Source: Holdemanella biformis DSM 3989 (GTDB lineage Bacteria > Bacillota_I > Bacilli_A > Erysipelotrichales > Erysipelotrichaceae). From it: 32,258 nucleotides of DNA. This document shows, one piece after another, positions 17,785-25,069 of the stretch (the first letter of the stretch is position 1; each line of letters begins with the position of its first letter). Location: the NCBI RefSeq assembly GCF_000156655.1, contig NZ_DS996845.1, positions 93,376 to 125,633 on the forward strand, written 5' to 3'. The position numbers and the translations under genes are program-made. Below the pieces are notes generated by a model. It saw only the letters and a program-made list of their open reading frames with translations. It ran no database searches and was not told the origin of the DNA.

Positions 17785-17790
17785 ACAGAC

Positions 17791-18065
17791 AACACATTGA
17801 TATGGAAGAGTAATTCACTAAGTTTTAGCCAAGAGAGATATTGTTTGGTGGAAAATATCGTAAAGCTAGAGAATGAAAATCACCATGGAGTGGCTATAGC
17901 GATAATGTAGTTATAGACGTGAGTCTTACGATATAAAGACTAGATGTGATTGCATCGATGAGGGCATTCGTTAGAATGAATTAGAGTGGTACCGCGGAAG
18001 AATAAAAATATTACCTTTCGTCTCTGAAGTTGTTTATCAGGCAACAAGAGACGGAAGGTTTTTTG
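17791..18065 (+). promoter_or_regulatory. T-box riboswitch, probably tRNA-Ile responsive
   Basis: The diagnostic T-box AGAGTGGTACCGCGG is at 17983-17997, followed by a terminator. Stem I closes by TAGCCA (17826-17831) with TGGCTA (17891-17896) and contains the AGAGAG motif, a distal stem GATATT/AATATC (17837-17842, 17854-17859) and the specifier region GAAAATCACCATGGAG. Aligned on the usual xxx-AC context, the specifier is ATC (17879-17881), an isoleucine codon. The antiterminator bulge TGGT would pair with a tRNA ending ACCA, which fits the A discriminator of tRNA-Ile and disfavours the alternatives Asn (AAT) or Ser (TCA), both with G discriminators. Uncharged tRNA would allow read-through into the transporter. 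Confidence 0.93.
18013..18065 (+). terminator. T-box terminator stem
   Basis: ACCTTTCGTCTCT (18013-18025) pairs with AGAGACGGAAGGT (18047-18059) with one G-U pair, followed by six T. Part of the 5' region is expected to compete with the antiterminator formed by the T-box sequence. Confidence 0.9.
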
Positions 18066-23024: not shown

Positions 23025-23037
23025 GTCTTCTTTTTTT
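23014..23037 (+). terminator. Terminator after parB, fused to the glmS -35 box
   Basis: AAGAAGA (23014-23020) pairs with TCTTCTT (23026-23032) around GTAAG, followed by five T. The stem contains the parB stop TAA (23022-23024). Its T tract runs straight into TTGACA of the next promoter, a very compact boundary. Confidence 0.8.
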
Positions 23038-23063
23038 GACATATGTATTATTTTTTGTATAAT
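23036..23063 (+). promoter_or_regulatory. Consensus promoter for glmS
   Basis: TTGACA (23036-23041) and TATAAT (23058-23063) are separated by 16 bases. Transcription is expected at about 23070-23071, about 26 bases before the ribozyme cleavage site. Confidence 0.85.
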
Positions 23064-23071
23064 ATTCATTA

Positions 23072-23255
23072 TTCATGGAGTTGTAGTAAAAAAATAGCGC
23101 CAGGACTAGAAACTAGTTGACGAGGACCAGACTTATCGAAAGATTCGGCGGGTAGTCTGGAGGTTGATACAACCTTTAACGATGGACAAAACCAATGTGT
23201 GAATATTGAACAAATCCATTTGGTATCCTCCATGAAAATAATATAATAGGAGGAT
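23072..23255 (+). promoter_or_regulatory. Candidate cleavage-dependent translational switch in the glmS leader
   Basis: TTCATGGAG (23072-23080), at the very 5' end of the mRNA and upstream of the ribozyme cut, is perfectly complementary to CTCCATGAA (23228-23236). Separately, ATCCTCC (23225-23231) is perfectly complementary to GGAGGAT (23249-23255), which contains the glmS Shine-Dalgarno. Both helices need bases 23228-23231, so they cannot form together. In uncut RNA the 5' end would hold the anti-Shine-Dalgarno; after cleavage the 5' piece may leave and the ribosome site may close. The pairings are seen in the sequence; the mechanism is inference. Confidence 0.5.
23092..23227 (+). ncRNA. glmS self-cleaving ribozyme riboswitch
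   Basis: The core is recognisable: AGCGCCAG at 23096-23103 with cleavage expected between A23096 and G23097, then P1 (ACTAG-AAA-CTAGT), GTTGACGAGGACCAG, P3 CCAGAC with GTCTGG, the conserved ATTCGGCGGG, an AGGTTG/CAACCT stem, and GATGGACAAAACC with GTGTGA. Glucosamine-6-phosphate is the cofactor of this class and triggers cleavage, lowering glmS expression. It lies directly in front of glmS, as always. The 3' border is approximate. Confidence 0.95.
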
Positions 23256-23263
23256 TTTTTATA

Positions 23264-25069
23264 ATGTGTGGAATCACAGCTTACGCAGGTAAAGAGAATG
23301 CTTTACCGTTTTTATTGCAGGGTTTGGAAAAATTGGAGTATCGTGGATATGACTCTGCAGGAGTGACATTAGTTTCAAGTCATCATTTAGAAACGTATAA
23401 GGCCAAGGGACGCTTAACAAATTTAGAAAAGATATTATCCGAAAAAGAACATCCTGAACATACAGGAATTGGACATACACGTTGGGCAACGCATGGTGTT
23501 CCAAGTAATATGAATTCACATCCACATACAAATGAGAGTGAGACAATTTCAATTGTGCATAATGGAATCATCGAAAACTATGCATCCATTAAAGAATGTT
23601 TATTGGAACAAGGATATAAATTTCAATCACAGACAGATAGTGAAGTCATTGTTCATATGTTGGATTATTACTATCAAGGAGATATGATGTATGCCTTAAA
23701 GAAATGTGTACAGTATCTTCAAGGAAGTTTTGCGCTATGTGTAGTTTGTACAGATTATCCAGACTGCGTCTTTGTCGCAAAGAAAGAAAGTCCAATGATT
23801 GTTGGAAAAACGGATACGGCTGCTTTTTGTGCAAGTGATATTCCAGCTGTATTAGATTACACAAAGGATATTTGTGCTTTAGAAGATAATCAAATGGCTA
23901 TTTTGAAACCAGGAAGTATTGAATTATATGATTTCTTTGGAGATCCAGTATCTATGAAATGGACACACATTTCGTATGATGCGTGTGCAGCTCAAAAAGG
24001 TGGATATGATACTTTTATGCAAAAAGAGATGCATGAACAGCCATATGTCATTAAAGAAACGCTAAGAGCTCATATTGAAAATAATTTGGCTATGCCAGAA
24101 TTATCTGGTTTAGACGTTTCAAAAATCAATCAAATCTATTTTGTTGCATGCGGAACTGCATATCATGCGAGTTTGTATGCTCAATACTTATTGCGCACAT
24201 GGATTGATTTACCAATTTACTGCATTAGTGCAAGTGAGTTTAGATATGGAAATTATCGAATTGATGAAAACACTTTATGCATCTTTGTTTCACAATCTGG
24301 AGAAACAGCCGATACTTTGGCGGCATTAAAACTTTCAAAAGAAAACAAAGCACAAACATTAGCTGTGACAAATGTATTAGGCTCTAGTCTAGCTCGTTTA
24401 TCTGATTTTGTATTATATACTTGTGCTGGGCCAGAAATTGCAGTCGCAAGTACGAAGGCTTATACAACACAACTTGTGCTGTTGGCATGTTTATGTTTAA
24501 AACTTGCAGCATTATGTAATGGGGATGTAGAAAATAAATATAATATGATCAATCAGTTGAAACAAATGCCAGAAGTGGTAGAAGAAATGCTTCAACAAGA
24601 AGATAAAATGGCAGAATTCGCAAAACTACTAACGAATCAAAAAGATGCTTACTTTATTGGTAGACAATTGGATTATTTAAGTGTTTTAGAAGGGGCATTA
24701 AAACTAAAAGAAGTTTCTTATGTACATGCCGATGCATATATGGCTGGAGAATTAAAACATGGTCCTATTGCATTGATTGAAAAAGATACGGTAGTGATTG
24801 CGTTAGCTACACAGCCTAGTGTTGCACAAAAGACGATTTCAAATATTTTAGAAACAGTAGCTCGTGGGGCAAAAGTCATTCTAATTACTTCAAAAAATCA
24901 GAATGCAGAAGGTTTTGATTATGTAATTCGTATTCCGGATGTGGATCCATTATTTAGTTGTATTCCAGCAACTGTTTTATTGCAGGAACTCGCATATTAT
25001 GTCGCAAAAGAAAAAGGTTGCGATGTAGATAAACCTCGTAACCTTGCGAAAAGTGTGACTGTAGAATAA
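23264..25069 (+). CDS. glmS: Glutamine-fructose-6-phosphate aminotransferase (isomerizing)
   Basis: GlmS makes glucosamine-6-phosphate from fructose-6-phosphate and glutamine, the first step to UDP-GlcNAc for peptidoglycan and teichoic acid. After Met, the nucleophile Cys begins CGITAYAGKENALPFLLQGL. The glutaminase domain has EYRGYDSAG, GHTRWATHG and HNGIIENY. Two SIS domains follow (CGTAYHASLYAQYL, SQSGETADTLAAL, ASTKAYTTQ, ELKHGPIALIE), and the C-terminus ends KPRNLAKSVTVE. The 601 residues match the family. The ATG lies ten bases after AGGAGG. The stop is immediately adjacent to the convergent DUF5662 gene. Confidence 0.98.
   Translation: MCGITAYAGKENALPFLLQGLEKLEYRGYDSAGVTLVSSHHLETYKAKGRLTNLEKILSEKEHPEHTGIGHTRWATHGVPSNMNSHPHTNESETISIVHNGIIENYASIKECLLEQGYKFQSQTDSEVIVHMLDYYYQGDMMYALKKCVQYLQGSFALCVVCTDYPDCVFVAKKESPMIVGKTDTAAFCASDIPAVLDYTKDICALEDNQMAILKPGSIELYDFFGDPVSMKWTHISYDACAAQKGGYDTFMQKEMHEQPYVIKETLRAHIENNLAMPELSGLDVSKINQIYFVACGTAYHASLYAQYLLRTWIDLPIYCISASEFRYGNYRIDENTLCIFVSQSGETADTLAALKLSKENKAQTLAVTNVLGSSLARLSDFVLYTCAGPEIAVASTKAYTTQLVLLACLCLKLAALCNGDVENKYNMINQLKQMPEVVEEMLQQEDKMAEFAKLLTNQKDAYFIGRQLDYLSVLEGALKLKEVSYVHADAYMAGELKHGPIALIEKDTVVIALATQPSVAQKTISNILETVARGAKVILITSKNQNAEGFDYVIRIPDVDPLFSCIPATVLLQELAYYVAKEKGCDVDKPRNLAKSVTVE

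Follow-up and report, generated by a model that had tools for sequence, protein, structure and literature searches.

GlcN6P-driven self-cleavage is established for the glmS ribozyme class. The leader of glmS, a cell-wall gene, in the gut bacterium Holdemanella biformis DSM 3989 raises the question of whether the cut can itself act as the switch of the gene. In Bacillus subtilis the ribozyme acts through RNase J1 decay (PMC3997798); two further papers attribute the action of glmS to decay of its mRNA and distinguish it from riboswitches that have an expression platform (PMC2258182, PMC11477304), and a 2024 review argues that the glmS ribozyme is not a riboswitch, given its decay-only action and the lack of an expression platform (PMC10907184). 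For the H. biformis leader, an initial annotation proposed instead that the 5' end of the intact RNA holds an anti-Shine-Dalgarno (anti-SD) strand and thereby keeps the ribosome site open, and that GlcN6P-induced cleavage releases this strand to close on the site. We analysed the leader within the window, that is, the whole stretch of 32,258 nucleotides to which all coordinates refer, and compared it with the leaders of relatives. With a probability of about 0.62, we read it as a glmS ribozyme whose own cleavage operates an attached expression platform.

Results

The element upstream of glmS is a glmS ribozyme. Its covariance match to RF00234 scored 88.1 bits against a curated cut-off of 37, and both the conserved cleavage site A/GCGCC and the location upstream of glmS are present. 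A whole-genome search returned one glmS ribozyme in this genome. The GlmS protein of the window shares 93% identity with that of Holdemanella porci. Since the promoter ahead of the leader is perfect, we predict the mRNA start near 23070, which places the 5' strand of a helix that we call P0 at the extreme 5' end of the message. The features of the locus are as follows:

23036 to 23063, plus strand: predicted promoter, TTGACA-16 nt-TATAAT, with 12 of 12 consensus matches
23072 to 23080, plus strand: P0 5' strand TTCATGGAG, on the fragment lost by cleavage (sequence and covariation)
23085 to 23232, plus strand: glmS ribozyme (RF00234, 88.1 bits), cut at 23096/23097 in A/GCGCC
23225 to 23231, plus strand: anti-SD strand ATCCTCC, pairing 7/7 with 23249-23255 and kept in relatives
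23228 to 23236, plus strand: P0 3' strand CTCCATGAA, pairing 9/9 with 23072-23080, with covariation and a 4-base overlap with the anti-SD strand
23249 to 23255, plus strand: glmS Shine-Dalgarno region GGAGGAT, by sequence and by its position ahead of the ATG at 23264
23255 to 23260, plus strand: T-run TTTTTT closing the SD hairpin, a possible terminator U-tract by sequence, enriched in relatives
23264 to 25069, plus strand: glmS coding sequence, 601 aa (open reading frame)

All four pairing segments were found exactly where the initial annotation had placed them, and the complementarity that it claimed is complete. TTCATGGAG (23072-23080) matches CTCCATGAA (23228-23236) at 9/9 positions and gives P0, and ATCCTCC (23225-23231) matches GGAGGAT (23249-23255) at 7/7 positions and gives what we call the start helix. 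The cut at 23096/23097 falls at the conserved cleavage site, and the 5' strand of P0 lies upstream of it. Because bases 23228-23231 are common to both helices, these cannot both form in full. That is, the leader contains two mutually exclusive helices, one of which hides the ribosome site, as in a translational expression platform. When the segments of the window were shuffled with dinucleotides preserved, P0 was equalled in none of 300 cases. The start helix was equalled in 4-6% of dinucleotide shuffles, which is mildly unusual in a single sequence; at p = 0.04-0.06 the single sequence does not settle the matter of chance, and the comparative evidence is therefore the strong part.

For this comparison, about 170 glmS-ribozyme leaders were gathered from f1, which is the family of the window, from its sister family f2 and from families f9, f12, f13 and f18. 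All of these relatives fall in the window's own class; a scan of named genomes found four. P0 is present in 12 f1 genera, including that of the window (hereafter f1A), in nearly all of the 20 f2 genera, and in f9 and f13. Its strands differ widely in sequence: TATTGCGAA/TTCGCAATA in L004, AAGATGAGT/ACTCATCTT in L007, GTTACTTAGAGA/TCTCTATAGTAAC in L149, GGCACAACTT/AAGTTGTGCC in L161 and AGTTGCTTTC/GAAAGCGGCT in L168. The helix sits at the predicted 5' end, and does so even in genera whose start pairing is unclear. In f13 it lies 50-60 nt upstream of the cut, beyond our search window of 34-38 nt, which was widened for the swap test to take in this family.

In the swap test, one leader per genus was taken from 40 genera of four families, and the pairing energies of a leader's own segments were compared with those of segments exchanged between genera. 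Own P0 strands paired at -13.67 kcal/mol versus -7.57 +/- 0.45 kcal/mol when swapped, and own 3' segments paired with the start region at -12.90 versus -10.73 +/- 0.33 kcal/mol; none of 20,000 permutations was as low in either case. Taken family by family, the test was significant for P0 and start helix in f1A (p = 0.0017 and p = 0.014), f2 (p < 0.00005 and p = 0.0001) and f9 (p = 0.016 and p = 0.014), and not significant in f13, where only 3 genera were available. Shared ancestry counts against this test, because segments swapped between relatives also pair well. When swaps were confined to families, with eight random draws of genus representatives, z was about -9 for P0 and about -4 for the start helix, values never reached in 4,000 permutations each. 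The negative control, 11 genera with P0-less leaders, gave p = 0.57 for both pairings.

Pair counts were obtained for the 30 distinct leaders of f1A. Here 95.2% of the P0 cells were paired and four of the nine pairs had changed on both sides, with a covariation score of 0.215 versus 0.120 shuffled (0/500 as high). The start helix was paired in 97.1%, one of its seven pairs was doubly changed (UA to CG, in L012 and L017), and its score was 0.073 versus 0.057 shuffled (1/500 as high); with the SD fixed, few changes are to be expected. Since pair counts ignore the tree, we placed more weight on the swap tests. The P0 3' strand and the anti-start strand overlap by at least 3 nt in 38 of the 40 genera, and the summed overlap of 269, versus 234 +/- 17.5 for random placement (p = 0.026), is a slight excess only. 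The test set beforehand for the proposal was whether relatives carry compensatory changes in both helices, and the swap tests and pair counts revealed such changes. At the level of sequence comparison, both helices are supported by covariation in relatives.

The target of the anti-start strand is not the same in all lineages. In f1A and the majority of f2 genera, the P0 3' strand complements the SD, in some across a mismatch or bulge whose flanks match. Interrupted anti-SD helices of this kind occur in L130, where CAUA-A-CUUCAUUUU pairs with AAAAUGGAG-G-UAUG, and in L150, where UAUGCCCCAUU pairs with AAUGG-A-GGUAUA; linker shuffles scoring SD occlusion worked in f1A and missed such interrupted helices in f2. 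Where some f2 genera (g72, g74) lack anti-SD pairing, and likewise in f9, this strand or the stretch continuing it is complementary to the region of the start codon (L165: CCATACACAGT with ATTGTGTGTGG; L128: TCGACACATATT with AATATGTGTGGA; p = 0.00-0.03 in shuffles). One strand matches GGAGTTG at the SD in f13, and convincing anti-start pairing was not found in some P0 genera, e.g. g69, g77 and g78. The idea that the CUCC strand merely complements an ancestral, SD-like GGAG close to the 5' end was rejected as the whole story, because the flanks of the pairing covary and the f9 target moves to the start codon.

Several further features of these leaders were recorded in their own right. An SD-like AAGGAGG or AGGAGG precedes the cut by about 20-40 nt in 27 of the 47 f1 leaders without P0 (e.g. 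L045, L047, L066), in 4/5 f12 leaders (among them L170-L172) and in 6/6 f13 leaders (among them L155-L157 and L164), versus 0/44 f1A leaders; this element might serve as a 5' stabiliser (Stab-SD), which cleavage would sever from the message. Some glmS ribozymes lie upstream of other genes, namely nagB (glucosamine-6-phosphate deaminase; L229, L230, L231, L232, L233, L237, L238), a GlmU-like acetyltransferase (L234, L235, L240) and glmM (phosphoglucosamine mutase; L236), where the target family was confirmed for L229, L230, L234 and L236 and assigned by similarity of the translation for the others. The 5' piece AAAGCTTGGTATT of L233 pairs with AATATCAAGCTTT just ahead of the nagB SD. In genera g20 and g8 of f1 (L061, L079-L082, L093, L095, L101-L103), TTCTCTTCTA directly before the cut complements GAGAA at the SD, which is modelled as less open in the intact than in the cleaved RNA; this is opposite in sign to the window and not significant. 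Behind ribozyme helix P4 (window 23222-23226) a motif outside the conserved Rfam core is kept, GGUAU or GGCAU in f1A and f2 and GGAUG in f9, and the P0 strand that follows it is variable. Genome G372 (f9) carries two glmS ribozymes (L158, L160), each ahead of a glmS-like gene. The window also contains a T-box leader (RF00230, 116.5 bits) at 17788-18028, which is ordinary for the group.

Folding with and without the 5' piece, the check that the initial annotation had suggested, bore out one half of its expectation: the cleaved RNA was clearly closed, whereas the intact RNA was open only conditionally and depending on length. Equilibrium folding of the cleaved window RNA gave 0.95-0.97 for the start helix and 0.01 for an open SD. 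In the intact RNA, P0 reached 0.93-0.95 before the SD is transcribed, and then roughly 0.4-0.8 for 3' ends from 23255 to 23280, 0.22 at 23290 and 0.01 at 23300. With more coding sequence, equilibrium thus favours the SD hairpin over P0, and the intact RNA is only bistable. When the ribozyme was replaced by a hairpin, the SD of the intact leader opened strongly in g2 (0.00 to 0.99) and g67 (0.25 to 0.91) and weakly in the window (0.01 to 0.18). Since the outcome depends on coding length and on the representation of the ribozyme, we relied on the comparative tests. Since equilibrium folding also lacks a clean 'intact = open' state, the switch must be kinetic or aided by ribozyme tertiary structure. 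P0 could form about 20 nt of transcription ahead of the start helix and would thus be kinetically favoured.

Discussion

The very start of the mRNA pairs with a strand that closely follows the ribozyme, and the 3' strand of this helix can pair with the glmS start region instead; pairing and covariation were observed for both. From this arrangement we infer the following course of events. At low GlcN6P, P0 would form first, because both of its strands are already present when the ribosome site is transcribed, and would hold the anti-SD strand; the ribosome site would therefore stay open in the intact RNA and glmS would be translated. At high GlcN6P, the cut at 23096/23097 would untether a piece of about 26 nt that carries the P0 5' strand, upon which the freed anti-SD strand would close on the SD and block initiation. 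Where a U-tract follows the hairpin, as in the window, an early end of transcription would be possible too. RNase J1 and J2 are encoded in the genome (two matches, 581 and 403 bits against a cut-off of 400), so decay of the cut RNA from its 5'-OH end can follow or add to repression. The cut probably closes the glmS ribosome site, and it may also stop transcription. Of the translational switch in the initial annotation, the covariation of both helices stands, as does the exclusive arrangement, which recurs in several families; a clean 'intact = open' state did not emerge from folding. A shade less confidently, though still on the favourable side of even odds, we extend the reading to several families of Bacilli, in which the glmS ribozyme would be a true riboswitch: ligand-driven scission would remove one P0 strand and set an irreversible OFF state that hides the ribosome site or start codon, with many lineages also terminating transcription.

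The window's SD hairpin, with 7 bp and a 17-nt loop, runs into TTTTTT (23255-23260) and resembles an intrinsic terminator. P0 might then be an antiterminator, an early cut would stop glmS transcription, and hiding of the SD would be secondary. The T-run begins at the very end of the hairpin, and at least five T's follow the SD in 49 of the 82 P0 leaders of f1A and f2, versus 5 of 101 SD-ATG spacers from about 280 kb of this genome (p = 7e-17, which is overstated because the leaders are related). By genus, runs of at least four T's were found in 9/12 of f1A and 10/20 of f2, and some relatives, e.g. L012, have short-loop terminators. Given this enrichment, the hairpin may terminate transcription besides or instead of hiding the ribosome site. 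For B. subtilis, a review reports that cleavage is cotranscriptional and reaches up to 80 per minute (PMC11476745), so the cut could come in time. As the principal output we nevertheless consider termination unlikely, since f9, f13 and about half of f2 keep the start-region pairing without a U-tract. In the window, the 17-nt loop and the few seconds between completion of the ribozyme and the U-tract speak against it as well, and a terminator scan did not list the SD hairpin. B. subtilis glmS, whose leader lies outside the comparison made here, showed no termination and served as a negative control for it (PMC12121620). Because f13 and half of f2 pair without a U-tract and f9 pairs the start codon itself, what the lineages share would be a block of initiation, with termination a likely additional output of some of them, perhaps including that of the window.

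P0 might also merely close the ribozyme and protect the 5' end against RNase J or RppH, with regulation left to decay and the SD complementarity a side effect of GGAG. Its place at the predicted 5' end, even in genera without clear start pairing, would suit such a role, as would the encoded RNase J1 and J2 and the decay mechanism known from B. subtilis (PMC3997798). But the pairing with the start region shows covariation of its own within families and reaches beyond GGAGG (L012/L017, L130, L150), and its target shifts to the start codon in f9, which is not expected of a by-product; we regard this explanation as quite unlikely. That the complementarity arose by chance in an AT-rich leader, as the shuffle result for the anti-SD helix alone (p = 0.04-0.06) would allow, is very improbable in the face of the 40-genus swap tests, whose negative control was clean, together with the pair counts, and the initial annotation had judged it unlikely too.

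A ribozyme whose own cut throws an expression platform is likely new to the literature on glmS leaders. In the titles, abstracts and passages covered, glmS with an SD, anti-SD, antiterminator or Stab-SD platform is not described. The B. subtilis glmS ribozyme (RF00234) shares with the window the ribozyme family, the cut position, the gene and RNase J in the genome; it is described as lacking an expression platform (PMC2258182, PMC10907184), whereas the window has two exclusive, covarying helices. As in translational riboswitches with anti-SD and anti-anti-SD strands, alternative pairing would set access to the ribosome site, but these refold reversibly on ligand, whereas here scission would remove one of the competing strands for good. 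Transcription attenuators likewise have exclusive helices, the later of which precedes a U-tract; here the antiterminator would be destroyed by self-cleavage, and many relatives are without a U-tract. The c-di-GMP-controlled group I ribozyme of Clostridioides difficile is natural and ligand-controlled, and its reaction alters downstream translation, but it is a self-splicing intron with a separate aptamer, whereas here a competing helix accompanies a ribozyme that cleaves itself. Engineered ribozyme-RBS switches, among them hammerhead designs, come close in that self-cleavage alters access to the ribosome site. This applies also to a twister-based switch (PMC5052635). Cleavage in engineered switches typically frees the ribosome site, whereas the present leader is natural and its cleavage is predicted to hide it.

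If the reading is true, cleavage of the glmS leader would act directly on translation or transcription, with no nuclease needed. The leader would then be a naturally occurring counterpart of irreversible RNA switches known from engineering, with a platform that persisted while the sequences of its strands changed repeatedly. This would also bear on the action of GlcN6P analogues, which are under study as antibacterials.
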